Positions 933 through 36,495 of a DNA stretch of 38,228 bases are shown here, one piece after another; position 1 is the first letter of the stretch, and each line of letters begins with the position of its first letter. The notes beneath the pieces are model-generated. The model had not been told where the DNA came from. It did not search any database and was given only the letters and a program-made list of their open reading frames with translations. The stretch covers positions 1 through 38,228 of the IMG/VR virus record IMGVR_UViG_3300005253_000620; one strand, written 5' to 3'. Source of the stretch: a virus. Made by a program: the position numbers and the translations under genes.

Positions 933-1130
933 TTGAAAATACTAGAGATAAATATGACTATCTTTCTGGATGATGATACTGATATGACTGTAGAACTTGA
1001 GGAGCAAATAATAAAAGGTCTTGTTGGTACTGTTAATGAGCACAATTGTTCTGCATTTATAAATGGTAACACTGTAGATGAATTGAGTCCAGTAGATATT
1101 GACGAGGATGAGAACTCAGAAGGGGAGTAA
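933..1130 (+). CDS. Small acidic early protein, paralogue C (TTG start)
   Basis: 65 residues starting at TTG, directly after the stop of the membrane peptide, with GTGGAACTAAA upstream as the variant leader. It aligns along its length with the 88-339 product: MKIL start, D-D-x-T-D-M-T-x-E-L block, the N-E-H-N-C motif and an acidic DENSEGE end. Strongly acidic, no membrane segment, no known domain. The stop codon lies inside the terminator hairpin that ends the operon. Function unknown; small acidic early phage proteins sometimes bind host enzymes, but nothing here shows that. Confidence 0.7.
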   Translation: MKILEINMTIFLDDDTDMTVELEEQIIKGLVGTVNEHNCSAFINGNTVDELSPVDIDEDENSEGE

Positions 1131-1149
1131 AATCCCCTTCTATTTTTTT
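1118..1149 (+). terminator. Rho-independent terminator of the left early operon
   Basis: Perfect 9-bp stem AGAAGGGGA / TCCCCTTCT (1118-1126 with 1133-1141), loop of six bases, then A and seven T. It overlaps the end of the paralogue C gene, so the stop codon is in the loop. Confidence 0.9.
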
Positions 1150-1800
1150 AAGTAAATGTCTGAGTACTACTGGATGTCAGTATCTAATTGATTGCCGTTA
1201 CCCATCGGGGGTGAGTACCAACAGGTTACGCGGGAGTAATGCACTAATGTTGACTAAATAAGGGTAGTTCGATCAAAAAGGGGCTGTGGATTTATCAGTA
1301 TTGTACTAATGCCTGTTACCATAGCATACAAGTACCACTAATGTCCATTAATACTAGCACAACTGTTCTAATTTATACTATTATACTCATGATTCCCCTG
1401 TACTTAGCTCAATTTATTACTCAAAAGCTCAATTTTTAACGTTTGTATAGTACAACTCACACTTGAGTAGAACTAAATTTGAGTTCAATTTGGGATTAGC
1501 GTACTAAGTACTGGGGGTCAGTACAGGGGAAATGTAATATATTACAGGCTACTACATATACTACAGCACCCACGAGTACACGGGGCGCTTTTTAGTTTTA
1601 CAGGGGCTGAGTAGAACTCGTTAAGACCTCTAGTACCAAATTTATTAGTATTGAACTCAAAGCTGTTACTAGTATAGGTGTACTAGTATTGATTAGAACT
1701 CTGTTACCGATTACAGAGCCAGTACAACTCCCTTTTATTTGTACTCGGGTGCTGTACTCAGTACTAAAGTCTACCTTATTTGTCCTATTTGAATACTACT
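1150..1800. other. GTAC-dense non-coding stretch
   Basis: About 650 bases without a credible gene on either strand. The tetramer GTAC occurs 16 times (for example in GAGTACT, CAGTACA, TGTACTA), against two to three expected at this base composition. ACTAATG, CTGTTAC and GAACTC also recur. The density carries over from the coding stretch 1-1130 (11 copies) and stops at about 1764: none is seen from 1801 to 2300. Meaning unknown; a protein-binding or methylation target array is possible. Confidence 0.5.
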
Positions 1801-2130
1801 AATTAGACCATATTTATCCACATTCAGCTGAATTAGGACAAATATTGTCCGATTAATTATTTGACTACACGCATACGTTTTTATTTACACGCTATTATTC
1901 TTTACGTTAAATTAACGTTGAGGGTAGAATAATTAAGGATCAAAGCATGATTTTTAATTCTTTAACATTCAACATATTAGAGATTGAATTATTTAAGGTT
2001 TCCCTAGTGTATCTATTGAATTATTTAAGGTTGAGTGTTTTATCATTTGTCACCTTTAACATTCGGGAATCAGAATAATGTTAAACCAGAATACACAGAA
2101 TTCTTTAACATTCATCTATTTTGATGACAA
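1770..2130. other. Candidate replication origin: DnaA box, palindromes, iterons, AT-rich DNA
   Basis: A consensus DnaA box TTATCCACA lies at 1814-1822. It is followed directly by a perfect 12-bp palindrome ATTCAGCTGAAT (1822-1833). Both are flanked by an exact inverted pair TATTTGTCCTA (1777-1787) and TAGGACAAATA (1834-1844), with a further TTGTCC at 1845-1850. ACGTTAA-A-TTAACGT (1904-1918) is another inverted repeat. The AT-rich stretch beyond holds four copies of TTTAACATT and an 18-bp direct repeat. This architecture matches initiator-binding origins, but a complex operator region is the main alternative. Confidence 0.5.
1956..2114. repeat. TTTAACATT iterons and an 18-bp direct repeat
   Basis: TTTAACATT is found at 1961-1969, 2055-2063 and 2104-2112 on + and at 2077-2085 on -. 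The outer two are part of an exact 16-bp repeat AATTCTTTAACATTCA (1956-1971 and 2099-2114). Between them ATTGAATTATTTAAGGTT occurs twice exactly (1983-2000 and 2015-2032, 32 bases apart, three helical turns). Such spacing suits cooperative binding of a phage protein. Confidence 0.75.
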
Positions 2131-2188
2131 TACACGAGGGATTATTTGGCTATACGCAATAGTAGAATACACGAATCTAGGGGGGATA

Positions 2189-2215
2189 TTGACAGACGCA
2201 AACCAGTAGTATCAT
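2189..2215 (+). promoter_or_regulatory. Possible promoter of the 2285-3292 cassette
   Basis: TTGACA (2189-2194) and TATCAT (2210-2215) are separated by 15 bases, shorter than ideal. They lie 70 bases before the first gene of the cassette and just upstream of the 2237-2260 hairpin. Confidence 0.35.
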
Positions 2216-2236
2216 GGGGGTAGTTTCCTTTTAATA

Positions 2237-2260
2237 GCGCGTAAGAAACCGCTTACGCGT
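2237..2260 (+). promoter_or_regulatory. GC-rich hairpin in the cassette leader
   Basis: Perfect 8-bp inverted repeat CGCGTAAG / CTTACGCG (2238-2245 and 2252-2259) with a six-base loop AAACCG, extendable by one G-T pair. It sits between the possible promoter and the ATG at 2285. No T-run follows, so it is more likely an operator or an mRNA stabilising or regulatory structure than a terminator. Confidence 0.5.
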
Positions 2261-2284
2261 GACAATCCACAAGGGAGTCTATCC

Positions 2285-2452
2285 ATGCAAGGAGATTATT
2301 CTACTTGTCCGCGTTGTGATTCGTTAAAGGTATGTGCAATTTATAACGTCAAGGCAGTCTGGGGAATCTATTCTGCTACGCATCAATGCGGAGATTGCAA
2401 GCATATCTACTTTAGTAACAACGTACCTAAACCTGAGGAGGTTAAATCATGA
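2285..2452 (+). CDS. 55-residue zinc-ribbon protein
   Basis: ATG at 2285 with AAGGGAG upstream; stop TGA at 2450-2452 overlaps the next ATG (ATGA). The protein has two knuckles, C8-P-R-C11 and C35-G-D-C38, with a strand-rich spacer between them (AIYNVKAVWGIYSATHQC), the pattern of a zinc ribbon. This is a fold common in small nucleic-acid or protein-binding factors. GC content and codon choice are higher than in the flanks. First gene of a three-gene + strand cassette. Function beyond metal binding is not known. Confidence 0.7.
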   Translation: MQGDYSTCPRCDSLKVCAIYNVKAVWGIYSATHQCGDCKHIYFSNNVPKPEEVKS

Positions 2453-2583
2453 ATGAATTATTGATTGCAATGCTGGTATTCGTTTTGATCCTGATTGCCC
2501 TGCTGGTACACAACACGCACCACGCATTAAAGAAGGCACGTTACAAAACGCAAAGGAGGAATCGACCTTGGCATGATTATTAA
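2449..2583 (+). CDS. 44-residue single-span membrane protein
   Basis: Starts in an ATGA overlap with the zinc-ribbon gene, implying translational coupling, and ends at TAA 2581-2583. Residues about 4-20 (LLIAMLVFVLILIALLV) form one membrane span. The rest is a basic tail (HHALKKARYKTQRRNR), so the C-terminus should stay in the cytoplasm. No known family recognised. It could anchor its cassette partners or act on the host membrane. It is far from the lysis genes, so a holin role is less likely. Confidence 0.6.
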   Translation: MNELLIAMLVFVLILIALLVHNTHHALKKARYKTQRRNRPWHDY

Positions 2584-2617
2584 ACCGTGAACGTCTAGTC
2601 TATAGGAGATTAATGTA

Positions 2618-3292
2618 ATGGGTGCAAGCAGAAACGACAAGGATAGAATGGATAGTAAATTCACAAGTGTAGTGGAGCATGACGTACCAACAATACGCAT
2701 GGACGCGGAATTGATTGAGGGGATCAAGAAGGGTTTCATGCTTGCTGGTACGTATGTAAGGGAGGGCGAGGTTTCCTTGACCGTTGAAAACGCGGTTGCT
2801 CAGTATGCCTCCAACTCTAATGTAACCGGACGCGTACACCTCAAAATACCAAATCGCAAGAGTGAGGTGCAAGTAGACATTCTAGCCTATTGGCCCTCAT
2901 GGCATGAGGACAAGAATAAAGCTGGTGAGACCGTGAGGATATACAGTAAGAATCACGGCAGTAAAATCATCACTCTCATGCAAACGGGAACGTTTAGCAA
3001 CCTCCCCATGCAAGCGTTGGAGCATATAGCCTACTGTGCCTTAGGTGTAGTCAAGGCGAGAATCAACTCGCCGCGTGAGGGTTTGATTAAAGCAAGCGTT
3101 CTTGAATTGCTGGAGTCATCGGGAATCTTGGTTACTGGCGGATCGTACCGAGGCGAGGAGTTTACACGCGATAGCATGTTGAGCAAGGTTACAACCATGC
3201 GGAAGATATTTGATGCAATGCAAAGCGTTGGTCAATTCAAACCAGTAGAACGCGGAGGCAAAGTGTTTGCTGTTGGGGTTACAGGTCAATAA
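2618..3292 (+). CDS. 224-residue hypothetical protein of the + strand cassette
   Basis: ATG at 2618 with AGGAG 10-14 bases upstream (TAGGAGATTAATGTA). The N-terminal 25 residues are polar. The middle is a mixed region including a strand-rich segment (RVHLKIPNRKSEVQVDILAY). The last 100 residues are helical with a pattern (LIKASVLELLESSGIL, then TMRKIFDAMQSVGQF, then a G-G-K-V-F-A-V strand) reminiscent of a winged helix; that reading is tentative. No enzyme motif is visible. GC is near 48%, clearly above the rest of the window, suggesting a different origin. Lying beside the candidate origin it could be a DNA-binding protein, but this is inference. Confidence 0.7.
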   Translation: MGASRNDKDRMDSKFTSVVEHDVPTIRMDAELIEGIKKGFMLAGTYVREGEVSLTVENAVAQYASNSNVTGRVHLKIPNRKSEVQVDILAYWPSWHEDKNKAGETVRIYSKNHGSKIITLMQTGTFSNLPMQALEHIAYCALGVVKARINSPREGLIKASVLELLESSGILVTGGSYRGEEFTRDSMLSKVTTMRKIFDAMQSVGQFKPVERGGKVFAVGVTGQ

Positions 3293-3337: not shown

Positions 3338-3476
3338 TTTGCAGCCGAATACCACTAACAAGATAGGCATTGTCCGAATACCCCCTCAACTTCTAAAAAA
3401 ACGCACTTACCGATTCGTGAAATCAAGCGGGGTGGTACATCACAGACCTACTAATACGAATTGACTTCGATATCGG

Positions 3477-7087: not shown

Positions 7088-7230
7088 CTTAGCTTTCTCC
7101 TCTTCATCCTTTTTCTATTCCGCCTCACTATCTCATCTCTAATCGTGAACACAGACTTTCCATCAATTTTCATCCCAAACTTTTTCTTTCTGTATTTACG
7201 ATCCCGACGGATATATTTAGGTTCTTTCAT
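7084..7230 (-). CDS. 48-residue highly basic protein
   Basis: ATG at 7230 and TGA at 7084-7086 both form ATGA overlaps with neighbours, so it belongs to the chain of coupled genes. Roughly half the residues are Lys or Arg, in clusters at both ends (YIRRDRKYRKKKFG and RRNRKRMKRRKLR) around a short strand (MKIDGKSVFTI). The charge suggests nucleic acid or ribosome binding. No family recognised. Confidence 0.6.
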   Translation of the reverse strand: MKEPKYIRRDRKYRKKKFGMKIDGKSVFTIRDEIVRRNRKRMKRRKLR

Positions 7231-7742
7231 TTAAGATATCCCCAAATCGAGAAAATATTTCTAATATGTTTTATAAAATCATCTTTGGAAGATGTATGTT
7301 TCATTACATTACATTTGTAACAACTACTAACTACGTTTCCAAGAATATATCCTTCACTATTGTCTATCCTATCTATACCATTGTATTTTATGCCACCATA
7401 ACAATCATGAATAGTCCTTTCTTTTCCAGGCGAAGCCCCACAGTAATAACAATTTCCACGTAGAAGAGCCTCAGCATATCCGTCTGGTAAAGAGTATTGT
7501 AATTTTCTTATATAAGCACCCTTTTTATAGTCACTAACTATTGCTCTAAATACAGCTATTCCCGAAGATAACCTTGGTCCTCTTTTTTTTATCTTGATGT
7601 TTCCATACTTTCTCCATCTTTCGTAGTGCATGGAACAAAGTTTTTTAGCTTTTACAGGTTTAGTACACGTAGTTGACCTACAAATATTAGGTTCTGTATG
7701 CCACGGCATCTCCGGCACTGTGAAGAAATATTTGTGTTTCAT
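7227..7742 (-). CDS. HNH endonuclease (free-standing, homing type) I
   Basis: 171 residues; ATG immediately follows the TAA of the upstream gene. Residues 21-39 hold a C-x4-C-x9-C-x2-H cluster. The catalytic region has C-Y-Y-C at 98-101, the block N-G-I-D-R-I-D-N (121-128), G-Y-I-L-G-N-V (131-137) and C-Y-K-C-N (141-145), the HNH fold with zinc-binding cysteines. The core is closely similar to the 9263-9610 endonuclease. Such genes cleave related genomes lacking the insert and spread by repair. It sits between operon genes without breaking them. Confidence 0.85.
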   Translation of the reverse strand: MKHKYFFTVPEMPWHTEPNICRSTTCTKPVKAKKLCSMHYERWRKYGNIKIKKRGPRLSSGIAVFRAIVSDYKKGAYIRKLQYSLPDGYAEALLRGNCYYCGASPGKERTIHDCYGGIKYNGIDRIDNSEGYILGNVVSSCYKCNVMKHTSSKDDFIKHIRNIFSIWGYLK

Positions 7743-8350: not shown

Positions 8351-8567
8351 TGTCAATCCTTATTCTGGGAAAGCCAAGCCGCCTGCCCAAGATTTTAGTT
8401 TTTCAATATAGGCTTGATTGTCCTGTATTGCCTCCCAAAGTTCTTCCATGTATCCTATCATCTAATTCCATTGTCAATCCTTATTCTGGGAAAGCCAAGC
8501 CGCCTGCCCAAGATTTTAGTTTTTCAATATAGGCTTGATTGTCCTGTATTGCCTCCCAAAGTTCTTC
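8326..8567. repeat. Perfect 121-bp tandem duplication
   Basis: Bases 8326-8446 are repeated exactly at 8447-8567, from CATGTATCCTATCATC to CCCAAAGTTCTTC. The unit contains the last 28 codons of the endolysin gene, the short gap and the first codons of the membrane protein gene. No differences were found by eye, so the event is very recent, or it is an assembly artefact. Confidence 0.92.
8360..8449 (-). pseudogene. Orphan duplicated endolysin C-terminus (29 codons)
   Basis: Made by the tandem duplication. The junction creates an ATG (8447-8449) in frame with the copied endolysin end, giving M then EELWEAIQDNQAYIEKLKSW and the original GGLAFPE-stop. The frame could therefore yield a 29-residue peptide equal to the endolysin C-terminal helix. 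There is no strong ribosome site, and it is best regarded as a by-product of the duplication, although such a peptide could in principle pair with the full enzyme. Confidence 0.6.
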
Positions 8568-9266
8568 ATGACTGTCGGAAGGAATGGGTTGTCCTGCATA
8601 AGCTAGTAATTCTGGATATGTACCATTGAAGAAACCTAGGTCACACGCTCCCTCTATACCATCTATTGTGATATCTCCCCGATATTGCCACCAAACCCAA
8701 TCATCATTCCATCCTACAGGCATCTTCCAAGGATTTGTTGGAATTCCATAAGGCCATTGGGCTAGTGCTAATCCACGAGTTTCATACCACTTTGGGTATT
8801 GGAAATTTACTCGCAGATTTTCTTGCCAAAACCAAGCATTTACATACACATCCATGTAGCTTCCCCAAACACTTTCTACACCAAGCATGTATGCTTCGCT
8901 GAAATCTACTAGAGGCTTTCCTTTTACTACTGGATCAAGTCTATACCGCTCTAGGTCATACCAAGGGGGTAGTTCCCCTCGATCATCTTCTGGAACCGTA
9001 TCAACCATAATACTAATTTGGTCATCTACAGGCTGGTGAGCACGACAAAAATGATATGCTCCTCTGAGTAAACCAACCTCCTTGTATCCATTCCAATGTT
9101 GTAAGAACAAAGGGTCTGGATAGTCTGCACCATAGGCCGCTCTGATGTATACAAATTTATATCCAGCATCAGCTATCTTTTGGTAGTCAGTAGTGTCTTC
9201 CCAATTATTTCCACCTTTCCAAGTACCTGCATACTTCGAGACATCTAATCCACTAATTCTATTCAT
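8481..9266 (-). CDS. Endolysin, GH25 (lysozyme/muramidase)
   Basis: 261 residues. It hydrolyses the MurNAc-GlcNAc bond of peptidoglycan at the end of infection. GH25 signatures are in order: G-L-D-V-S-K (D8), Y-I-R-A-A-Y-G (40-46), G-A-Y-H-F (69-73), Y-D-L-E (103-106; D104 and E106 catalytic), then W-W-Q-Y-R and D-L-G-F-F-N-G near the end. The catalytic domain ends near residue 225. The remaining tail (SDSHEELWEAIQDNQAYIEK) is a single helix rather than a recognised wall-binding repeat. No signal peptide, so it needs a holin to reach the wall. ATG overlaps the stop of the HNH gene (ATGA). Confidence 0.93.
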   Translation of the reverse strand: MNRISGLDVSKYAGTWKGGNNWEDTTDYQKIADAGYKFVYIRAAYGADYPDPLFLQHWNGYKEVGLLRGAYHFCRAHQPVDDQISIMVDTVPEDDRGELPPWYDLERYRLDPVVKGKPLVDFSEAYMLGVESVWGSYMDVYVNAWFWQENLRVNFQYPKWYETRGLALAQWPYGIPTNPWKMPVGWNDDWVWWQYRGDITIDGIEGACDLGFFNGTYPELLAYAGQPIPSDSHEELWEAIQDNQAYIEKLKSWAGGLAFPE

Positions 9267-9610
9267 TGTCTACCTTGGTGTTCTACTAGTCTATCAATCC
9301 AAGCTTGAAACTCTCTCATTGACTGATTAGATTTAACATAGTTACAAGTCTTACAGCAAGGTAATACATTTCCGTAGATATACCCTAGATTGTTATCTAT
9401 TCTATCGACACCATTGTAGAGATAATCGCCATTAAGTTCCTTATTGTGATATATCTGACTAGGCTCAATACCACAGTAATAGCACTGCATTTGAGTGAGA
9501 GACTTGAAATCTTGTTTTCTAAGATTCCAATTATGTCCTCTTAGTTTGGCACTACGTTTATTATTATGGTACAACTGGTTATAGGCCGCTTCACCAAACA
9601 GTAAAGTCAT
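9263..9610 (-). CDS. HNH endonuclease (free-standing, homing type) II
   Basis: 115 residues. The core C-Y-Y-C (43-46), N-G-V-D-R-I-D-N (66-73), G-Y-I-Y-G-N-V (76-82) and C-K-T-C-N (86-90) is nearly the same as in the endonuclease at 7227-7742, so the two are paralogues. This one lacks the N-terminal cysteine cluster of the other. A basic N-terminal region (NNKRSAKLRGHNWNLRKQDF) may bind DNA. It ends in an ATGA overlap with the endolysin, so it inserted without cutting the lysis gene. Start at 9610 is the first ATG; its ribosome site (AGGGTAGTAACTA) is modest. Confidence 0.85.
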   Translation of the reverse strand: MTLLFGEAAYNQLYHNNKRSAKLRGHNWNLRKQDFKSLTQMQCYYCGIEPSQIYHNKELNGDYLYNGVDRIDNNLGYIYGNVLPCCKTCNYVKSNQSMREFQAWIDRLVEHQGRQ

Positions 9611-12277: not shown

Positions 12278-12820
12278 TTATGCTGGTGTATCACCTTCTA
12301 TACGAAAGGTTACTGACTCAGCAGCTGCTGCTGATGCTGCTGCTGAGATAATTCGCCTGACCCAAAGTCCAAACCATTCCCCAAAGGCTAAATCCCCTCC
12401 ACCACCAGGAGCCGCCTTCCCCGTTGCTTTAGATGTGGCATCGGACCATCCACCTAGACCAGTCGGTGCTGTGGATTCATTAGCAATTGTTTGGATTGCT
12501 CCAGTTGTTTCACTGACTGCTGGAACTTCAACATCAAAACTAATATCATCTTCAGCATTACCTGTATCTACTTGAATCCAAGCTTTAATAGATGTAAGAG
12601 TTAAAGACCCATGATTGTTCAAGAAACCAACCGCTCTATATTCTGTATCACCCGCACCTGATTCTGCTCCAGACACATCATCGAATAGGTTATTATCTCC
12701 AGCACCAACATTTTCTGATGCTCGATAATTTCCTAAACACGCATCTGGATCAGATTGAGAAGCGTTATGTGATGCCGCTCCAGTGTGTTTATATAGTAAA
12801 TCTCCTGCTACTATAGCCAT
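12278..12820 (-). CDS. Virion structural protein, probable appendage component
   Basis: 180 residues, GGAGGAAAAAAT before the ATG at 12820 and a perfect promoter further upstream. It is a beta-rich, low-charge protein (GSLTLTSIKAWIQVDTG, then DISFDVEVP), with Gly-rich (APGGGGD) and Ala-rich (AAASAAAAES) segments. The layout resembles small phage surface proteins that decorate a tail or fibre. The Ala run is encoded by GCn repeats. No catalytic motif. Its own promoter suggests it is needed in large amounts or at a distinct time. Confidence 0.6.
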   Translation of the reverse strand: MAIVAGDLLYKHTGAASHNASQSDPDACLGNYRASENVGAGDNNLFDDVSGAESGAGDTEYRAVGFLNNHGSLTLTSIKAWIQVDTGNAEDDISFDVEVPAVSETTGAIQTIANESTAPTGLGGWSDATSKATGKAAPGGGGDLAFGEWFGLWVRRIISAAASAAAAESVTFRIEGDTPA

Positions 12821-12840
12821 ATTTTTTCCTCCAAAGACTA

Positions 12841-12874
12841 ATTATATCATATTTTAGTACTTTTGTCAAGTACT
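12841..12874 (-). promoter_or_regulatory. Perfect consensus promoter with operator-like palindrome over the -35
   Basis: Reading leftward: TTGACA (12869-12864), 17 bases, TATAAT (12846-12841) with TG one base ahead. A 19-bp inverted repeat AGTACTT-GACAA-AAGTACT (12874-12856) covers the -35 box. Each arm contains GTAC, the tetramer enriched at the left end. It faces the 12278-12820 gene. Confidence 0.88.
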
Positions 12875-12876
12875 AA

Positions 12877-14709
12877 TTACTCTCCAATGAATACTACAGT
12901 TACATTATAATGTTCAATCGTTACATCATTGTTATTTGTTTCATTTCGGACAAATAAGCTAATTTGAGCATTAATTCCCAAATCTAAAACACATATACTG
13001 CTCATAGCCCTAACATCATTGGCTGTTTGAATTGTCCTCTGTGTTCTTCCTTCTATTTGAGCCATGTTATTTATCATAATTCCTCCATGAACCTCTGGAG
13101 TGTCTGCCGCGTTATCCATTGACATAGCTAATGACCAATCTATTTTATATATTCCTGAGACTAAGACTCTAAGATAATGGTCAGTAAATGCAATATTTTT
13201 AAGTAGTCCGCCAGATATAGTCGGAGTACTAGCATCATCTACTTCAGTTGGATTATTATCAGAAATAGTTACTACAAATGAACTATTTTGGTATGCGTGT
13301 CCATAAGCTTGTATTGTTTCCCCAGAAGGTTCATTTCTCCAAAACCCTGTTTCATCATCATACCGAATTATATCGTCATCTTGTAATCCAGATATTGTAA
13401 TTAAAAATGCTGGAGTATTCTTCCAATCATCATCACCTAAATCATATGCTAATACATCATCATTAGCGAGTCCAGAAAGTGTCGCAAATAATCCTGGTCG
13501 ATTTTTCCACTCACTAATATCATAAGCTATAACATCATCAGTCACTACCCCAGAGAATGTTACATCGGTATGAGTATCACTTCCTAGAGTATGTGGACCT
13601 ACCCCGCTCCCACCGCCGCCCCCAGCGTGACTGTGTAATGTAGTTTCTCCACCATCTGTTAGATCATTATAATCAGCAGATGTGATTGTTATTCCGCTTT
13701 GGAATTTTAGAGACGTATCACTAATATTGATGATACGATTTCCACGCATATCTAGGGTGTCGCCTAAACTTACATGCCCAAGATTAGTATAAATAGCATA
13801 GCCTGAGACATTTCCTACATTTTGGTCTTCTACATACAAACCATAAGTTAGGTCAAAAAATCCATATCCAGGAGCATATTGTCCTGGAGTTTGAGCAAAA
13901 AAAGCAATCCCCGAAGCTACGTCCTTCGATGTTTTCCCAACATCAGCCCGTCCATAAACAGCCATTAGAGCAGCAGTGCCATCATCCCTCGGAATAAGGC
14001 CTGGACTCGAAACTATACCATAAAGACGGGTAATCGAACTTGTAGCGGGAGATAAATCTCCATCTATATCAACAAACCGATCTCGATAATAGGTACTTGC
14101 CTCTATACCTCCTACCTCTAAAAATCCTCGCTTGCCAAAATCATCTCCTACGATTCTTACTTTAAATCCATGAGATCCATTAATAAAATTAGTATAATAG
14201 CCAACCTCGATTCCAGTTGTATTTGGTTGAGAACCATGTCTCCAAAATGTAATAGCACCATCTTCGTGATAATTATATCTGTCATCACGCTGTCTGAGCA
14301 AGGTACCATACCCAATTAGGGCCTCCCCTCCGCCCGCGTCCGTTATTTCAAATTCAGCATCAAAATTCAAAACAGTAGCATCTGAGACAATCTCGACTCC
14401 GTCTTCTCGAATCGAAGATATTCCCCCACTAATGAGGGCTATACTATACCTCATGTGGGCTAAGTTGTCTAATATGGATGGAAGTGCTGGATCATAATAC
14501 CCTGAATAACTATCTTCTGTAGTGTCATAGGCAATCTTACCTTGGGGTAATTGCCCATAAACTCCACCAAGGGGTACTCCTGAACCCCCATCTGCCCCAG
14601 AACTTCCACCCAGATTTAAAGGTGCTGTCCACCACTTATCGGAATTTGACATACCACGCATGGTGTCAAGTAAATTTACGTGATAATCTCTAAGTATCGT
14701 CGGTGGCAT
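12877..14709 (-). CDS. Tail fibre / receptor-binding protein with C1q-like tip
   Basis: 610 residues, TAATG overlap with the upstream gene. The N-terminal 330 residues are strand-rich with shaft-like text (IRVNNISD type turns, TYYRDRFVDIDGDL). A Gly-rich hinge (HSHAGGGGGSG) follows near residue 365. Three units of about 30 residues come next, each with S-G-(L/V)-x-x-D-D-(V/I)-x-x-Y-D and W-(K/R)-N-x-P. The last 145 residues (from about YGHAYQNSSF) resemble a C1q/TNF-like jelly roll, a common trimeric fibre tip. Likely binds the host surface. Identification rests on fold-like patterns and position. Confidence 0.75.
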   Translation of the reverse strand: MPPTILRDYHVNLLDTMRGMSNSDKWWTAPLNLGGSSGADGGSGVPLGGVYGQLPQGKIAYDTTEDSYSGYYDPALPSILDNLAHMRYSIALISGGISSIREDGVEIVSDATVLNFDAEFEITDAGGGEALIGYGTLLRQRDDRYNYHEDGAITFWRHGSQPNTTGIEVGYYTNFINGSHGFKVRIVGDDFGKRGFLEVGGIEASTYYRDRFVDIDGDLSPATSSITRLYGIVSSPGLIPRDDGTAALMAVYGRADVGKTSKDVASGIAFFAQTPGQYAPGYGFFDLTYGLYVEDQNVGNVSGYAIYTNLGHVSLGDTLDMRGNRIINISDTSLKFQSGITITSADYNDLTDGGETTLHSHAGGGGGSGVGPHTLGSDTHTDVTFSGVVTDDVIAYDISEWKNRPGLFATLSGLANDDVLAYDLGDDDWKNTPAFLITISGLQDDDIIRYDDETGFWRNEPSGETIQAYGHAYQNSSFVVTISDNNPTEVDDASTPTISGGLLKNIAFTDHYLRVLVSGIYKIDWSLAMSMDNAADTPEVHGGIMINNMAQIEGRTQRTIQTANDVRAMSSICVLDLGINAQISLFVRNETNNNDVTIEHYNVTVVFIGE

Positions 14710-18420: not shown

Positions 18421-21400
18421 TTATTTTGTAATTTGATGATAACTACCTGCACCAACTCTTGCCACAGTTTGAATAAGATCACGTTCTAAGAATTTTCTTA
18501 CTTCCCGCTGAATAATGTCGCCTCGAATGTAGATAGGAATATCAATCTCTATATCATTGGTAATAGATACATTGATACTCTCAGGCAGTAGTTGTTGCAT
18601 TGCATCTCCAGCAGCTTGTTCTGTTGTTCTCGGCAACTCACCAGTACCCCCTTCACCTTGTCCCATCTTGGCCGCTACCCACCTTTCCATATCTCTGAAA
18701 GCGTTTAAGCCCATCAATTTACTTGCTTCAAGAAGGTCTGAAAACTCTCTTGGTAACTCTTGTTCAAGCTCTTGTTGAACCTCTGGTATTGTTGCACCAC
18801 CCCCACCACTTCCCAAATTCATAGCTGCTGTGAATGGAATCCACGCAGACATTCCTTCAGGGATATTGAAAATACCCTCCAATTGATCTTCATTCACCTT
18901 AATTAAGTCTCGGAGAGCTAATTGAATAGCTAAGTTGTCCCCATGCAGAGTGTCAGTCACAAAATCACTAAATATAACGCCTAGAGTTTCTGGTTCTAAC
19001 TCAAAACCAGGGATGGTCAATAGTATCCGTTCAAACTCTTTAATTTTAGCTCTTAAGGCTGGTGCCTCTGCGGAAGATATGTCAGGAGTTAAAACTTGCA
19101 TTTGAGAATCGGCTTTTGCTCCCAACCCCTCCTCACGAATCAAATTCTGCAAAATATCAAGAGGAACATCTTGGTCTATAGGTACAAGCTCGCCTTCAAT
19201 ATCAAACATAACTTGACGGTAGGTCGATCTAACTTTTTCTCTTTGAGTTTCATCTAAACCTAGTGCATCCATAATCTCTTCAGACTTCTCAAATGCTCTA
19301 GCTATAAGTGCATCCATTTGACTTTCAAATTCAGAGGAAACTTCTAATATGTCTGGCATTTCAAAATCGGCCCATATAAGTCCCTTTTGAGAGACATCTA
19401 TTGCAAGACCTAGTTCTTCCCGAAGTTTCCTTAAATCTACTAGAAGTGGTCCTAGTTTTCTATCTTCAGGCCCTAATCCAGCATCTTCCAGTTTTTCTAT
19501 CTCTCCTTGAACTCGAAGAATATCACCTGCTATTCGATTAAACTCGGTAGAAACTTCTTGTCCTCCTACTAACATAAGCAGAGTTAACTCCTCTACTGAG
19601 CCTACAATATTCTCTATACCACCCACAGCCTGATCGCTATCTTCTAAAGCCGCGTAAACAGCACTAACTTGATTTTGTAGTGTAGGCAAATCCGCGGCTA
19701 AATCTTTTATTTCTTTTAGTCCAACTCCACCCTCGCCTCTAATAGCTTGTTGCCTTAGATGTGCTAATCTTTCCTCTCCAACAGCTCTTACACTTGGAGC
19801 TATTGCAGTTTGAACACCTTTTAATCTTTCAAAAGTACGAGTACCTTCAAGAGCAGTCTCTAAATCAAGTTTCTTAGCTTCTTCTAAAATGGCAGCATTC
19901 AATTCCTCAAAGGCTTTTCTTACTTCCTCTCTGGTCATTTGAGCACCAGCCAGCCACCCAGACAAATCCATAAATGATTCAATATCTGCCCCAAATATCT
20001 TTTCTGCATCTTCTGGGTCTAATATTCCAGCTAAAAGTTCTCCAATTAAAAGGGTATATTGTTTTTTGAGTTCTTCTTCTGATAGTAATTGTCCTTCTTT
20101 TAATCTACCTCGTTCTACTAAAAGTTCTTGGATAGGTTCTGTCGCCTTTTTCCTTGATATTTCCATCTGTGTCCCTGTAAAGATTGGTGTAAATACTTGA
20201 GCAAGTCCCTTCTCAATAGAAGCTGTTAATCGCTCTCCTAGGACACTTACTCTAGTTCTATCGGGGTCTTCATCATCCTCAGGGATTAGTAGCTCTAGAG
20301 GTTGTCCCAACACCGCGGCTCTAAAAGCTCCTACTATAGTAGATGCCTCAAGTTCAACCGATTCAACCATAGCCATTCCCATAGCTGATCCAATAACTGC
20401 TCCCACTGGACCAGCTATCAAGCTGCCAGCAATCGCTCCTGCTATTGAACCCCCTATCTCTTTCGGTTCCCCACCTGATATAAGTCCACCAAGAAGGCCA
20501 ATACCTGCACCAGCTAAACCCCTACCAGCCGGAGTTCCCCCAAAGAAACCTCCCACAGTCTGTTGACCTCCAAAAGTAGGTGTGTGTTGTTTGCTGGGTA
20601 GAAATGTTTTGTCAATAAAACCCCCAGCGGCTCCTCCAGCAATTCCTATCCCTTGGCGGATTCCTATACCTTGTGGCAATTTTGGGATAAGTTGACCTCC
20701 AATTCCCTTAATAGGCCCAATCCCACCCAAGATTAACCAAGCTGCGGCAAATGCTGTAAGGGCTTTAGTAGCTGGTCCTAGAAAATCTATAAGAGAACGA
20801 ATTCCATCAATAAGACTCGTGAGTAAATCAACACCAGAAGATATTGAATCTAAAAAGCCTCCTCTTTCCCCAATTTCACGAGAAAGTTGAGTAAAGGCAT
20901 TGGATAAATTCACTAAAGCAGATTCTACTGTAGCTAATTTAATTCCGAGAGATTCTTGTGCATCTCCACTAGCGTTTGCACTAACTTCTGCAAGAGTAAG
21001 AACTCGTGCATAGTTCTCAATAAATGCATTGACTTGAGCGCCACGACGAGCACCCCCACCAATGGATTCTGAAATCTTGGCTACATCTCGATCTGAGATG
21101 ATTCCCATTTGTTGTCTTGATACAATTCCTTCTATAACCTCAACGAAAGACAGAAGCTCGCCTCTAGCATCTCTTACTGCTATACCATATTTACCCAAAG
21201 CCCTTTCTGCTTCTACGGTTTGAAATCCTGAAACAAACGCCCTAACAGCATTACCAGATTCGGTAGCGGAGAGCGTCGTTACCTCTGCAACAGCGGCGAT
21301 AATTCCATTTAATTTATCTAGATCAATCCCAACATTTTCTGCTGCTGTAGATGTAATAGCAAAAGATTCTGCTAGTGTAGCTAAACTTACATTGGCTTCT

Positions 21401-23034
21401 TTGGCTACAGCCACCCACTTATCTAATAATTCTTGTCCTTGATCTAATTCCCTACCTGTTTGTGATAATGCTCCAACCAAAGTATCCAACGCTACTGCTT
21501 GGTCTAAGCCAGATAATTTGGCTAAAATCATTGAATCTTTGAGAAGTGCTGTCGCCATATGTGCTCTTTCAGTCTCATCTGCGTATTTACCTGCGGCACG
21601 TATAGCTAATACATATCCTTCTACAACACCAGTGAGTTCAACAGAGAGTTCCCTAGAAATAACAGCAGCACTCTCAAATATGGCATTTAAATTGGCCCCT
21701 GTTTTTCCTAGGACTACTTGCACATCGGCTAGTTTACTTTCTATTTCAATTGAGAATGTAATTACCTCTTGTAATTTTCTCATGGTTCCATAAACTAGCC
21801 CAATAGCAACTGTCCACTTAACAACCTCTCCAACATTCCTCTGAATTGCACTTGCAAAATTTCTAAAGTTTTTCTGGGTACTTTGTAGAGTATTTCCCCA
21901 CTTATCTGTTACAACAGTCGCAGTCCGTACTTTTCCAAAATTGTCAAGTATGGATGCACTATATCGTGTAATTCCTCTAGAACCATCAATAGAAACGTCT
22001 TTAATATTTTCCAATGAAAAATTAAATTTTTCAAATTCACGAGTAATATTCTTTACCGCATTAGCTCCACCAGGAAGACTTTTAACAAATAGAGGATTAT
22101 CAGCTAGTTTATCAAAGGTAGTTGAAAGTTTTAGAGCATCTCTATTTATATCACTGACAGTTTTTCCTCCAAACAATTGTTCTTGGGGGCCACCAACATC
22201 CTTTTGTCCAAAGCCACCTTCGTCTGATACTCGTTGAAGTTCCTTTTCTAAGGCTACGAGTTCCTTAAGTGCGGTCTTCATCTCTATTGCCGATTTCAGG
22301 CCAGTTACTTTAATTCTTACATCTCCACCTTCCGTTTTTACATCCGTAGTTGAGGCATGAAGCTCCATTAGTCGTTCCGAAGCCTCATCAAGGTCTTCCG
22401 TCCCTGTTATTTTCATGTCCATACGAAAAGCGTCTTCAATTAAAGCTGCTTCATGAGCTACTCCTTTTACTTTTCCAAGAAGGTTATCTAGTCTTTTTAA
22501 GTCCGCATCTCCCCCCATAGCATTCGCATGAGCTGGTTCCTTATTAAAAAATAGTACCTTATCATAAAGCATAGTTAGTCTTTCTAGACCCTCTATCCCT
22601 GAAATTGCTACTCTTATATCTTGGTCTTCTATGCCTTCGAGTTGGCCTTTTAGCCTTTCAATCTTTTCAAGAAATTTCTCATCAAAATCAATGTCCACTT
22701 CAATAGGTTTGGGGCCTTGATTTAAAAACCTTCCCCCCTCTACTGGACGGCCTCCACCAAATCTTCCTAAAGTTTTTGGTTCAGCGAAAATTCTATTTAC
22801 TGTCGCTTCCATCCTAATAAGTTGGGTTTCGGCCTCCCCTAAACTTCGGATAAACTCTGTAATGAAATTCTGAGCACCAGCCGCGGTTCCAGACACAAAC
22901 TGCCCTTCAGAGATACCCTTTAATTGTCGCCTAAATTCTTCTAGGGCAGTACTTGAGCTTTGTGTAGATTCAACTATCCCATCAATAAATTGACGTATAT
23001 CTGCTAAATCTCGTTTTAGTTCTTCAGCGGCCAT
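18421..23034 (-). CDS. Tail tape measure protein (TP901-type)
   Basis: 1537 residues, the longest gene, ATG in TAATG overlap with the chaperone frame. Long helical N-terminus (about 1-410). Then the conserved tape measure core at about 415-660 (RELSVELTGVVEGYVLAIRA, LAESFAITSTAAENVGIDLD and the A-V-R-A-F-V-S-G-F segment). A Gly/Ala-rich hydrophobic stretch (about 790-900, GLAGAGIGLLGGLISGG and SIAGAIAGSLIAGPVGAVIG) can form membrane helices for DNA entry. The rest is coiled coil. It sets tail length and is ejected into the host. From length alone the tail would be long (order of 200 nm), as a rule of thumb. Confidence 0.95.
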   Translation of the reverse strand: MAAEELKRDLADIRQFIDGIVESTQSSSTALEEFRRQLKGISEGQFVSGTAAGAQNFITEFIRSLGEAETQLIRMEATVNRIFAEPKTLGRFGGGRPVEGGRFLNQGPKPIEVDIDFDEKFLEKIERLKGQLEGIEDQDIRVAISGIEGLERLTMLYDKVLFFNKEPAHANAMGGDADLKRLDNLLGKVKGVAHEAALIEDAFRMDMKITGTEDLDEASERLMELHASTTDVKTEGGDVRIKVTGLKSAIEMKTALKELVALEKELQRVSDEGGFGQKDVGGPQEQLFGGKTVSDINRDALKLSTTFDKLADNPLFVKSLPGGANAVKNITREFEKFNFSLENIKDVSIDGSRGITRYSASILDNFGKVRTATVVTDKWGNTLQSTQKNFRNFASAIQRNVGEVVKWTVAIGLVYGTMRKLQEVITFSIEIESKLADVQVVLGKTGANLNAIFESAAVISRELSVELTGVVEGYVLAIRAAGKYADETERAHMATALLKDSMILAKLSGLDQAVALDTLVGALSQTGRELDQGQELLDKWVAVAKEANVSLATLAESFAITSTAAENVGIDLDKLNGIIAAVAEVTTLSATESGNAVRAFVSGFQTVEAERALGKYGIAVRDARGELLSFVEVIEGIVSRQQMGIISDRDVAKISESIGGGARRGAQVNAFIENYARVLTLAEVSANASGDAQESLGIKLATVESALVNLSNAFTQLSREIGERGGFLDSISSGVDLLTSLIDGIRSLIDFLGPATKALTAFAAAWLILGGIGPIKGIGGQLIPKLPQGIGIRQGIGIAGGAAGGFIDKTFLPSKQHTPTFGGQQTVGGFFGGTPAGRGLAGAGIGLLGGLISGGEPKEIGGSIAGAIAGSLIAGPVGAVIGSAMGMAMVESVELEASTIVGAFRAAVLGQPLELLIPEDDEDPDRTRVSVLGERLTASIEKGLAQVFTPIFTGTQMEISRKKATEPIQELLVERGRLKEGQLLSEEELKKQYTLLIGELLAGILDPEDAEKIFGADIESFMDLSGWLAGAQMTREEVRKAFEELNAAILEEAKKLDLETALEGTRTFERLKGVQTAIAPSVRAVGEERLAHLRQQAIRGEGGVGLKEIKDLAADLPTLQNQVSAVYAALEDSDQAVGGIENIVGSVEELTLLMLVGGQEVSTEFNRIAGDILRVQGEIEKLEDAGLGPEDRKLGPLLVDLRKLREELGLAIDVSQKGLIWADFEMPDILEVSSEFESQMDALIARAFEKSEEIMDALGLDETQREKVRSTYRQVMFDIEGELVPIDQDVPLDILQNLIREEGLGAKADSQMQVLTPDISSAEAPALRAKIKEFERILLTIPGFELEPETLGVIFSDFVTDTLHGDNLAIQLALRDLIKVNEDQLEGIFNIPEGMSAWIPFTAAMNLGSGGGGATIPEVQQELEQELPREFSDLLEASKLMGLNAFRDMERWVAAKMGQGEGGTGELPRTTEQAAGDAMQQLLPESINVSITNDIEIDIPIYIRGDIIQREVRKFLERDLIQTVARVGAGSYHQITK

Positions 23035-27941: not shown

Positions 27942-29210
27942 CTAATCATCTAAGACATCCGTAAAGAGTTTATCCCATTGTTTGGCTATAGTTTTCCAGC
28001 TATAACAATTCTGAGTTACCAATTTATATGCTTTATTAGACATCTCTTCTAAATACTTGGGGTCTTCATAAAGTCTTTCTAGGGCTTCAGCAACATCTCC
28101 TGGAGATACGAAACGTCCCTCTGTCAAAATTCTCTCGGTAGTCAAGGAATATGTAGCATCTAACATTTCCGCATTTCCTTCCCAAATTTCAGTACATGCA
28201 GAGTGGTCTGGAACTATTTGGGCTGCTCTTGCGGCAGCGTGTTCAAAACTTGTTAGTCCCCACCCTTCTCCTGTAGATGTGTTTATTCCAACATCACAGG
28301 CGTTATAAATCTGGTTCATTCTTTTATCTGGAACACCAGGAATTTGATTTAATGTACTAGTTAAAATTAATCTATCATCCATTCCATATCTTTTACAGAG
28401 TTGTACAATATTCCAACCAGCATCTTCAACTCCCATATGGAGGTATAACTTTACATTTTTAGGTTTATTTTTTGCAAATTCAGAAAATCCCTTTATAGTA
28501 ATGTCAATTCTTTTTCTAGGTTGGTTCCTATTAGAATTCAAAACGATAAATGAATCTCCTGTAAAATCCTCTCTATTAGGGTAAAGCTCTCTCTTTGCTC
28601 TCTCTCTTCCCGTTTCAATCACTACATCGTTGGGGCCTTTTACATCATTCCAAGGATAAAATACGGATGTATCTATTCCATGAGGAATAACTTCTAGAGC
28701 AGGAACTTCCCTATCTAATAGAACGTTCCCGTTCTCATCAATAACCATTGCACTTAAAGCTTTCTTTACTTCTTTCGCTGCAAACTCAGTATATACAACA
28801 AGTCTAGAGATTCCATTTAGGTCCTCTAACCAAGCTTCCTGAACAGGTGCAGCATCTATTGGAGCATAGGCTATTAATGGAATTTTATCCACATATCCTT
28901 TTAGTACTTCTTTCATATAAAAGCCATGAACCCAAAGGTCATTTAGAACAAAAATTAATTTTGGCTTTATTTGGTCAACTAAGTCACCCACCCTTTTTAT
29001 TCCATAAATATCTCCACCCAACGATGCGGGATAAATCTTCCACGCTTCATCGTGAGGGTCGCCCCTATAATTCACCGCTAAGTGGTGGATGTCATATTTA
29101 TTACGAGGTAAGTTTCTCATTACATTATGAATTACTCTTGAGAAACCCGTACTTGCTACTCCATCTCCAACTACCAATATAGGAATCTTTACCTTCTTTC
29201 TCCTGCCCAT
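27942..29210 (-). CDS. Glycosyltransferase, GT4 family (GT-B fold)
   Basis: 422 residues, GGGAGGTTAGGG before the ATG. N-terminal Rossmann half starts V-V-G-D-G-V-A-S-T-G-F-S-R (13-25), and the hinge is followed by IPHGIDTSVFYPW (175-187). The donor half has N-R-N-Q-P-R-K-R (228-235, phosphate-binding R/K) and G-E-G-W-G-L-T-S-F-E (314-323), the EX7E motif. It transfers a sugar from a nucleotide donor. It lies inside the head-tail connector block, so a virion protein is the likely acceptor; modified DNA or a host glycan are alternatives. No membrane segment. Confidence 0.92.
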   Translation of the reverse strand: MGRRKKVKIPILVVGDGVASTGFSRVIHNVMRNLPRNKYDIHHLAVNYRGDPHDEAWKIYPASLGGDIYGIKRVGDLVDQIKPKLIFVLNDLWVHGFYMKEVLKGYVDKIPLIAYAPIDAAPVQEAWLEDLNGISRLVVYTEFAAKEVKKALSAMVIDENGNVLLDREVPALEVIPHGIDTSVFYPWNDVKGPNDVVIETGRERAKRELYPNREDFTGDSFIVLNSNRNQPRKRIDITIKGFSEFAKNKPKNVKLYLHMGVEDAGWNIVQLCKRYGMDDRLILTSTLNQIPGVPDKRMNQIYNACDVGINTSTGEGWGLTSFEHAAARAAQIVPDHSACTEIWEGNAEMLDATYSLTTERILTEGRFVSPGDVAEALERLYEDPKYLEEMSNKAYKLVTQNCYSWKTIAKQWDKLFTDVLDD

Positions 29211-33489: not shown

Positions 33490-34938
33490 TTACTTACTTT
33501 TATTCTTTGATTCTCCAGGTTCCTTGCTGAACGGTAAGGGGGCAAACTCTTCTACCCCAAGCTCCTCCAGACGTTCATTCTCTAAAGCCCTTCGTGTAAC
33601 TGTCTCATACCAATCAAATCCAAATATAGATGAAAAGTCCTCTCTAGAAAGATTTCCAGAAGCATAGAGTTCTTTAACTCCCTCAATAAAGGAAGAAACA
33701 GCCATCATATTAATAGGCTTAAACATTACAATTGGGCTTCCCCCAAAATCATTTACTTCAGAAAAAGTATCAATCACCCGAGTAATTATAGGAAAAAGAG
33801 CTTCCCTGATCCTTTCCATTGTTTGAATAGGAGAAATGGTAGCTATTTCTGGATCAGATGCAAACGATCTCTCTGTTTCTCCCGTGATTAAAATTCTAGG
33901 AAAACCAAGCGCCACCCCTATGTCCTGATTTACATTTTTGTATTTTGTATCATCGAGCAGTCCCTCTACATCTGGGAACACCCAAGAAATGTCAAGAGTA
34001 TGGTTTCCAAACAACTGAAAAATTCTCTCTACTTCCTTAGAAGATGATGTTTCTCTCCAGAGCATTTCTGCTTTTAATTCGTCTAGTTGTTCTTCATTGT
34101 CCTCAGTCAAAGGGAAATCTTTATCTCCTAAACGAACTAACATTATTGCTGTAATTACTCTTGATGCAATAGAATAGTCCATCCTACGTAAATTTCTTTT
34201 GTGTTTTAGAGATTCTAATGCTGAGTATGTATATGGAATTGGGTAAGGATTTCCTGTCAAAGTTCTAAATCTAAGTGCCATTGGATTTTCCAAAAGAAGT
34301 TTCTTCTTACCCGATTTTACCAATGCAATTATTTCAGGAAATCTTTCTACAAACTCTTTATATAGTTCTCTATCTTCTGTACCGTTTTCATATTTACCTT
34401 TATTTTTGATAAAGTAGAGCAGTTCTTTAGGTAAGTTCATGAAATAAGATACCTTCCCACCAAACATGGGGTCACGGATTTCTATATTCATTGGATTGCG
34501 TATCCACATATCTGTAGGAAGAGTTAATTTTCTAAATCTTTTTATGCCTAACTCCACTAACTGTTCTTTATTTAATTCTTCAAATTCTATTTCTGGGATC
34601 ACTAGTCCAGAAACTAAGTATTCAAGAGCCGCTGATCTAAGAAAAGTTAACAACTGCCCCTTGATAGCTTTCAGCACCAAAACGGATGATTCTCTAGCTT
34701 TTCCCTTTCGGATTATTAAATCATTAATAGACAAATCTACGATTTTATTTATTACTGTTGAAACGTATGGGTCTTTCTTGTAATAATATCTACATAGTTT
34801 AACAGTAGCGTGCCATGTTTTTTCACTAAACTCAAGCTTATCTACATCCTCTGGCGTCCAAGGATAGGAACCACTATTTTGGGGATTAAGCAGAGTAAAA
34901 CTTGCTTTCGCTTTATGTAAAATTTTATCATCACTCAT
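33490..34938 (-). CDS. Portal protein
   Basis: 482 residues. Helix-rich with portal-type segments: Y-K-K-D-P-Y-V-S-T-V-I-N-K-I-V-D-L (about 52-68), P-T-D-M-W-I-R-N-P (about 141-149), and D-I-G-V-A-L-G-F-P-R-I-L-I-T-G-E-T (about 336-352), the last being the usual core before the crown helices. Also F-G-F-D-W-Y-E near the end. Lies directly after the large terminase. Forms the ring through which DNA enters and leaves the head and on which the shell assembles. Confidence 0.85.
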   Translation of the reverse strand: MSDDKILHKAKASFTLLNPQNSGSYPWTPEDVDKLEFSEKTWHATVKLCRYYYKKDPYVSTVINKIVDLSINDLIIRKGKARESSVLVLKAIKGQLLTFLRSAALEYLVSGLVIPEIEFEELNKEQLVELGIKRFRKLTLPTDMWIRNPMNIEIRDPMFGGKVSYFMNLPKELLYFIKNKGKYENGTEDRELYKEFVERFPEIIALVKSGKKKLLLENPMALRFRTLTGNPYPIPYTYSALESLKHKRNLRRMDYSIASRVITAIMLVRLGDKDFPLTEDNEEQLDELKAEMLWRETSSSKEVERIFQLFGNHTLDISWVFPDVEGLLDDTKYKNVNQDIGVALGFPRILITGETERSFASDPEIATISPIQTMERIREALFPIITRVIDTFSEVNDFGGSPIVMFKPINMMAVSSFIEGVKELYASGNLSREDFSSIFGFDWYETVTRRALENERLEELGVEEFAPLPFSKEPGESKNKSK

Positions 34939-34944
34939 TTTTTT

Positions 34945-36495
34945 TTACCTTCTTAACCATCTAGGTGTTAATAACTTTTTAGGTTTATATCTGTGAATAT
35001 CGGAATCTTTAACTTGCCAATGGGCGATTGCAGCACAGAGTAAGGCGGCAGTATTATGATCTGCCCCTCTATTTCCTCCACCTGGAGTCAGTGTCCTGTA
35101 AATAATCTCGCCCCTTACATTCTTACTGTACGTTGTTCTTTCCAATTCAGCTACTAAATCTAAATCTGTAGATGAATAAATGATTCTATGAGAATTAGTA
35201 TACTCCTGTAGAACAGAGAAAGCGAAGGGACGTAACTTTGTTTTTATTTCCTCCCCTTCAGAATCCTCTCCCAAATGAATGTTGGCTCCAAACTCTATAG
35301 GGATCATTCTCTTCTTATAGTCTTTGTGAATATATGCATCTCCTTCGAGCAAGTCCTGTACTACTGGTTTTCCAGGACCTCCCGCATCTATACCTATTAT
35401 ATCAAATCTCCCAAACTTTTCGTCTAAATAATCAATGATCTTCTTCTGAAATGGATATTTGACTTTTTCTAGTTGAATCCTAGCATGATATCTTTTGATC
35501 CCATTTCTTGAGTATAAGATATGAATAGCAGTTGGGTCTGTATATCCTAAGTCGATTCCTACCAAAAGAAAATCATACTTTGCATCTATTGAAGGGATAA
35601 GTGCCAATCTAGCAATTATTTCTTGTAGCGTGGTCATTTTTATCCCATTGATTTTGGTCTTATATACAGGGTAATCTGCGAACTTCATTAAAGTTCTATC
35701 AAACACAGCAAATGTTGGGGTTCCATGCTTTCCCAGAACTAGGTGTATATAATCTTCTGAATCTATACCCCCAAACTGGTGAATATTTCTCTCCTCATCT
35801 TCTTTTGAATATCTTGGGTTTTCATGTGCTGAAATTCTATGGGTAGAAAATTTTGGGTCAAGAGTGTCTGCATAAAAGCACACATTCTTCTCTCGCATTC
35901 CCGTAGGAACTCCAGATACAAACTGTCTAAATCCTTTTTGAAATGTATTTAGTGTAGGTTGAAGTTCTATCCACGTTCCCCAGGGATAAAACCCAGACTC
36001 ATCCAAGAATTCAACTGGAGAATGCATCCCGATTACGCTCTGACCGCCGCCTGACGTTCCGGCGATTCTACAATCCAACATAGTTAGATTTTTTAGTTTA
36101 ATATTGTGGTCAGATGCATTTATTCCTCCTCGCTTATCTACATAACTTCTTAAAATAGAATTACTTCTAAATTGTCTTGTAAGCCCCATAAATACAGGGT
36201 CAAGGTGGACCTTATTTGGTACAGTGTAAACTAAATAGTCATTTGGAAAAACTTTATTTATGAGATACCAAACGAGTAAATGCACAATTGCTACGGTTTT
36301 TCCTACAGAGCGACCACAACATAAACTTACATAGGAATTAAAATCACAAATAAATTGTTTCTGATATAGTGTAAACTTCCACTCTTCTTCCCACTCTTGT
36401 CTATCAACATTCTCTAGGAACTCTGCACACAAAACTGGATGCCTAAGTATTTCATAAACGATTAGTTCTTCTCGATCTATTTTCTCTTCAATCAC
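34945..36495 (-). CDS. terL: Terminase large subunit
   Basis: 516 residues; start is GTG at 36495 (GAGGACAGTAAATA ahead). ATPase domain: Walker A C-G-R-S-V-G-K-T (60-67), Walker B V-E-F-L-D-E-S (161-167) with catalytic E166, and S-G-V-P-T-G as coupling segment. RNase H-like nuclease: D315 in V-G-I-D-L-G-Y-T, D370 in I-G-I-D-A-G-G, D479 in R-G-A-D-H-N-T. It pumps DNA into the prohead and cuts concatemers. No small subunit gene is seen next to it; the genes upstream are sugar-transfer types. Confidence 0.95.
   Translation of the reverse strand: MIEEKIDREELIVYEILRHPVLCAEFLENVDRQEWEEEWKFTLYQKQFICDFNSYVSLCCGRSVGKTVAIVHLLVWYLINKVFPNDYLVYTVPNKVHLDPVFMGLTRQFRSNSILRSYVDKRGGINASDHNIKLKNLTMLDCRIAGTSGGGQSVIGMHSPVEFLDESGFYPWGTWIELQPTLNTFQKGFRQFVSGVPTGMREKNVCFYADTLDPKFSTHRISAHENPRYSKEDEERNIHQFGGIDSEDYIHLVLGKHGTPTFAVFDRTLMKFADYPVYKTKINGIKMTTLQEIIARLALIPSIDAKYDFLLVGIDLGYTDPTAIHILYSRNGIKRYHARIQLEKVKYPFQKKIIDYLDEKFGRFDIIGIDAGGPGKPVVQDLLEGDAYIHKDYKKRMIPIEFGANIHLGEDSEGEEIKTKLRPFAFSVLQEYTNSHRIIYSSTDLDLVAELERTTYSKNVRGEIIYRTLTPGGGNRGADHNTAALLCAAIAHWQVKDSDIHRYKPKKLLTPRWLRR

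Follow-up and report, generated by a model that had tools for sequence, protein, structure and literature searches.

The 1.14-kb non-coding region near the left end of the window (the whole stretch of viral DNA that was analyzed, 38,228 bases; G000 among the compared genomes) is best explained as a compound transcription-control region of the operon at 2285–3292, composed of dispersed and partly oriented sites, a reading to which we assign a probability of roughly two in three. In the arrangement proposed, several site families (a GTAC array, a GGAC-N7-GTCC compound palindrome, the oriented motif GRCTAYRCGMA, AATGTTAAM, and ATTATTTAAGG) would occupy the stretch from the terminator that closes the preceding unit to a promoter shortly before the next start codon; that promoter would be raised, blocked or timed by at least one DNA-binding protein on these sites. 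The sites lie in non-coding DNA, recur in other phages, and are located there upstream of consensus promoters; we infer that they are protein-binding sites acting on transcription, the sign of the effect being likewise a prediction. An earlier note on this DNA had proposed an origin or an elaborate control region and had favored the origin; the control half of that proposal is supported, and is preferred over the origin half, because the same words and site types precede consensus promoters in both related and unrelated phages.

The window is a complete IMG/VR record in which end repeats are absent, and it is probably a piece of a larger genome. A few small plus-strand genes are found at its left end and the late genes are on the minus strand (Table 1; all gene positions are ORF calls); two neighboring endonuclease VII/HNH-like genes, perhaps homing endonucleases, are at 7227–7742 and 9263–9610. 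A terminase search yielded ~86 related contigs, of which 16 long ones were read, and counts cover 17 genomes including the window. Motifs were defined post hoc, by inspection; counts in the phages that defined them are therefore not independent, and G031, G033, and G055 provide the fairer tests. The DNA of the region had zero matches among annotated phages and plasmids, no family reached its gathering score in an Rfam scan (a single lncRNA match was at chance level), and no tRNA was found. A search of bacterial and archaeal genomes for a host returned one terminase relative only (59%), inside a contig binned as Candidatus Bathyarchaeota (L150); stray phage DNA is the likelier explanation of this otherwise surprising contig, because the window encodes a GH25 muramidase.

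The earlier note had placed its cluster at 1777–2114, limits that are too narrow, as the DNA is non-coding from the terminator to the start codon at 2285; its remark that no gene covers the cluster agrees with the absence of ORFs of at least 60 aa across 1131–2284. All of its sites are present where it had placed them: the consensus DnaA box TTATCCACA (1814–1822, plus strand), the 12-bp palindrome ATTCAGCTGAAT (1822–1833), the 11-bp inverted pair TAGGACAAATA/TATTTGTCCTA (1834/1777), the 7+7 palindrome ACGTTAA-A-TTAACGT, four iterons TTTAACATT (1961, 2055, and 2104 on the plus strand and an inverted copy at 2077), and exact repeats of 16 bp (1956/2099) and 18 bp (1983/2015). The AT-richness that it remarked on amounts to 71–76% in 1831–2130. 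It had missed the GTAC sites, the two copies of GRCTAYRCGMA, the hairpin at 2237–2262, and the TTGACA box at 2189. When compared with 500 dinucleotide shuffles of 1777–2114, the 18-bp direct repeat (p < 0.002) and the 9-mer in four copies (p = 0.016) exceeded chance, the 11-bp inverted repeat was marginal (p = 0.048), and the 12-bp palindrome, within chance at p = 0.15, is for that reason unremarkable by itself.

Table 1. Features of the candidate control region, its flanks, and the late genes of the window.
Feature	Position	Strand	Basis or remark
Intrinsic terminator	1118–1141	+	9-bp stem then T run; closes preceding unit of small plus-strand ORFs
Whole non-coding region, putative control region (1.14 kb)	1142–2284		no ORF of at least 60 aa; 12-mers common to five such regions
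Array of 16 GTAC-core sites (first to last 1164–1764)	1162–1765		count vs. shuffles
Compound palindrome (arms 1796–1823 minus and 1832–1859 plus, flanking AGCT palindrome)	1796–1859		G055 matrix; hairpin
"DnaA box" of the earlier note, reread as putative TTTATCC half-site of left arm	1814–1822	+	arm alignment; G055 arms
Dyad AATTAGGAC-N7-GTCCGATTA	1831–1855		sole dyad of GGAC-N7-GTCC type in window
GRCTAYRCGMA copy 1 (GACTACACGCA)	1863–1873	+	motif search
ACGTTAAATTAACGT palindrome	1904–1918		sequence inspection, fold
CTTTAACATTC copy 1	1960–1970	+	CGAATGTTAAA also in G008
ATTGAATTATTTAAGGTT copy 1	1983–2000	+	repeat search; ATTATTTAAGGTTT also in G003
ATTGAATTATTTAAGGTT copy 2	2015–2032	+	repeat search
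CTTTAACATTC copy 2	2054–2064	+	repeat search
TTTAACATT inverted copy	2077–2085	-	site listing
CTTTAACATTC copy 3	2103–2113	+	repeat search
GRCTAYRCGMA copy 2 (GGCTATACGCA)	2148–2158	+	motif search
Candidate promoter TTGACA-N15-TATCAT	2189–2215	+	short spacer; weak alone
Hairpin in presumed leader RNA	2237–2262	+	fold z -2.9
55-aa zinc-ribbon-like ORF	2285–2452	+	weak Pfam zinc-ribbon match, E 0.018
44-aa ORF, one hydrophobic segment	2449–2583	+	sequence
224-aa orphan protein	2618–3292	+	homologue at syntenic place in G003
Lone dyad half-site, just past operon terminator	3352–3379	-	4th best G055-matrix match in window
GH25 endolysin (muramidase)	8481–9266	-	late gene
Tape measure	18421–23034	-	late gene
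Portal	33490–34938	-	late gene
Terminase	34945–36495	-	late gene

The non-coding regions of five phages (G000, G003, G008, G031, and G033) are unalignable, yet they have 21 exact 12-mers in common, vs. a mean of 2.2 and a maximum of 6 in shuffles. GRCTAYRCGMA is present in 12 copies in these five regions and in one copy outside them in the 17 genomes read, with 0 copies in 35 further records; it occurs in both orientations in G031 and in two copies only in the window. G008 has a second region bearing the same words (86650–87260). The four "iterons" of the window (TTTAACATT) are similar to sites found ahead of G055 promoters (AATGTTAAC); with an 8-mer as its basis, this possible link is the weakest of those drawn here. 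Next to GRCTAYRCGMA in G008 (~11803 and ~12083, oriented) are two sites, GAAC-N4-GTTC, that fit the SOS box of Gram-positive bacteria; L116 shows this as well, and SOS control is hinted at in both. Other repeats were encountered in the compared contigs: a dense tandem repeat next to the array region of G013 (GATAGC 47 times in 600 bases, ~12770–13400, oriented), four tandem GCGTATAGCC-like units at 2880–2940 of L152, an unrelated contig, where they adjoin a DNA methyltransferase-like gene, and, in long non-coding gaps about 33–41 kb from the terminase, different short-repeat arrays of GGTTAA (G024, ~680) and ATTGTA/CAATTA (G032, ~40800–41500, oriented). GRCTAYRCGMA and ATTATTTAAGG, which are reminiscent of a loxP arm and a rox arm, respectively, have no inverted partner, and no tyrosine recombinase was found in the seven records searched, so this reading was dropped; a bipartite promoter centered on GRCTAYRCGMA was rejected, as nothing else is conserved within 60 nt.

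The GTAC array has a narrower distribution. Its 16 sites in 1142–1780 amount to 25 per kb vs. 2.8 per kb genome-wide, and 2000 shuffles gave a mean of 5.5 and a maximum of 14. The array is common to the window, G003, and G008 (25, 14, and 16 per kb vs. ~3 genome-wide) and the enrichment is not seen in G033 or G055. When clustered 6-mers were scanned genome by genome, GTAC words ranked first in the window and among the first in G003, where all 12 copies of the array word TGAGTACT are non-coding and spread over several intergenic spaces. Only phages with the 224-aa protein or a possible remote homologue (G000, G003, and possibly G008) carry the array, which may be a separate matter linked to this protein family; the 224-aa protein may be a factor for it.

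Dyads of the GGAC-N7-GTCC type show a sharp peak at spacer length 7; all 12 in G033 are inside its array region, and 14 of 14 in the G055 early module are intergenic, though 63% of that stretch is coding. The two arms in the window are 36 bp apart, in G055 arms are often paired ~40 bp apart, and the compound palindrome folds as a hairpin (z -2.9). The left arm when reversed reads GTGGATAAATATGGTCTAATTA and aligns with the right arm, TAGGACAAATATTGTCCGATTA; TTTATCC occupies the equivalent place in G055 arms. On this alignment, the left arm of a conserved palindrome has TTATCCACA as its degenerate half-site; one further exact copy of TTATCCACA is found at 28885, and the region has no second box at one mismatch or fewer. 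A matrix trained on G055 arms alone, with 200 permuted matrices as control, had its best matches in the 38-kb window at 1832, 1796, and 1827, all within the region, an outcome achieved by 0 of the 200 permuted matrices; the window arm score itself (20.8) is below the highest permuted-matrix score (24.8). In G033 and G013 the matrix gave clusters, with scores above every permuted maximum, and 17 contigs retrieved via one chance match had no cluster and zero copies of GRCTAYRCGMA.

G055 (87.4 kb), found by an IMG/VR-wide pattern scan for paired GRCTAYRCGMA sites, is outside the terminase family: it lacks the family terminase, its overlap with the family is limited to a lysin, a distantly related PolA, and a handful of proteins that are small or sporadic, and at E 1e-4 it shares no specific protein with the other site-bearing phages. 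Between the genes of its early module lies a composite consisting of an arm, GGAGCTCC, a second arm, often GRCTAYRCGAA, and AATGTTAAC/GTTAAC sites, usually followed by a TTGACN-N16-18-TATAAT promoter and a start codon. The dyad, GRCTAYRCGAA, and AATGTTAAC sites repeat between consecutive early genes, mostly directly 5′ of the promoter, and arms are located 44–198 nt upstream of 8 of the 12 consensus promoters of the module; every copy of GRCTAYRCGMA is on the strand of the genes, and almost all copies fall inside the module. The arrays of G033 and G031 are followed, before the next gene, by TTGACA-N17-TATAAT (3286, minus) and TTGACT-N17-TATTAT (33999, plus), respectively. Placement directly 5′ of a co-directional promoter and start codon is thus clear in G055, G033, and G031 and weak in the window, where sigma-70-like matches in the region are no commoner than in shuffles.

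The 224-aa product of the operon has zero PHROG or Pfam matches, and its predicted structure (pLDDT 53) is too poor a model and gave no credible fold match. Its only detected homologue is at the syntenic position in G003 (59.9 kb; 35–39% identity); a 199-aa neighbor in G008 is a possible remote homologue (score 22.5 against the 224-aa profile, equaled by 5 of 772 shuffles; rank 2 of 106 ORFs), and the protein is missing in G033, G031, and a further 28 relatives. As a general binder it is ruled out, because G033, G031, and G055 carry the sites and not the protein. The factor may be either host-encoded, which is plausible because the phages sharing the sites have no specific protein in common and G055, otherwise unrelated, carries two of the site types, or a phage protein diverged past detection. 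A bolder proposal, which we regard as tentative and rather doubtful, is that one regulator encoded by the host reads all the shared words (the GGAC-N7-GTCC compound palindrome, the oriented GRCTAYRCGMA, and AATGTTAAM); early promoters wired to that host would have arisen by convergence, or spread by exchange, among phages that infect one uncultivated host group.

The alternative that survives best, though it is unlikely, is a replication origin resembling oriR of SPP1, in which repeats beside an AT-rich unwinding region are bound by a phage initiator (here the 224-aa product or another, unseen one), with a few small genes between transcription modules. It keeps a share of the probability because SPP1 provides a precedent for a genuine phage origin that looks like such a repeat region (PMC6316719) and because the two regions of G008 with the same words would fit two origins; the direct repeats and AT-richness that an SPP1-type iteron origin requires are present as well. 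Origins of this type also involve an initiator on the repeats, a helicase loader, and DnaB. Searches that included PHROG and Pfam detected no replication genes in the 38,228 bases, and since the window is probably a fragment those of its phage would lie outside it, which leaves some room for an origin. The origin half of the earlier proposal is nevertheless unsupported, because the DnaA box is an unconserved half-site, the sites are dispersed, the replication genes are elsewhere, and the skew change coincides with a strand switch. DnaA-dependent origins usually have boxes in clusters, kept among relatives; the region of the window has a single DnaA box and those of G003, G008, G033, and G031 have none; the site types are spread over ~10 intergenic spaces of G055, mostly beside promoters. 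A PolA-RecA-SSB-DnaB module is present in every relative whose record extends far enough (DnaB was detected only in relatives); where placeable, it usually starts ~7–21 kb past the terminase, in the direction that leads away from the array; array-bearing relatives have more than 40 kb of record between module and array, and several relatives have other non-coding gaps directly 5′ of PolA. Cumulative GC skew, which the earlier note had suggested as a check, changes near 3.4 kb, where the coding strand switches, and coding-strand skew has no replichore step, a weak test in a phage. One region may also serve both control and origin.

Stoperator-like silencing in a temperate phage, whose own repressor would bind oriented sites and halt elongation, is improbable. 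Stoperators of the L5 type are asymmetric, mostly intergenic, and oriented with transcription (PMC6550527, PMC9283540), as is GRCTAYRCGMA, which is asymmetric, mostly intergenic, and always along transcription in G055; however, the dyad and GTAC sites are symmetric, G055 and the other phages have no common repressor, and neither an HTH_3 repressor nor a tyrosine integrase was found in the seven of these records searched, a search of incomplete records that divergent repressors could escape. Chance build-up in a long AT-rich spacer of decayed small ORFs, although the 12-bp palindrome and the DnaA box occur at or close to chance expectation, is scarcely credible, being already contradicted by the cross-phage counts, with shared 12-mers far above shuffles and both GRCTAYRCGMA and the dyad specific.

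If the control reading is true, the region provides a readable regulatory signature for a family of uncultivated siphophages. The same words flag control regions in genomes that cannot be aligned and would be usable to find early promoters; they could also link such phages to the host whose regulator recognizes them and guide the search for the binder. A promoter-upstream array would also be seen to mimic a replication origin easily.

Like oriR/oriL of SPP1, the region has repeats and AT-rich DNA within a bracketed segment that also carries small genes, and G008 has two regions with the same words; unlike SPP1, there are more than 10 sites in G055, mostly before promoters, no initiator was found, and the sites are unlinked to replication genes. 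The stoperators of Cluster A mycobacteriophages (L5, Bxb1) are likewise short asymmetric intergenic repeats, of 13–14 bp, along transcription, as is GRCTAYRCGMA in G055, whereas the sites described here belong to several families, of which some are symmetric, and stand upstream of promoters in phages that have no common specific protein and in which no repressor or integrase was found in the records searched. The C1 operators of phage P1, which are dispersed and asymmetric, and the Mot boxes of T4, to our knowledge unrelated in sequence to the sites described here, offer a further likeness: in both, as would be the case here, numerous copies of one short, asymmetric site control separate promoters.
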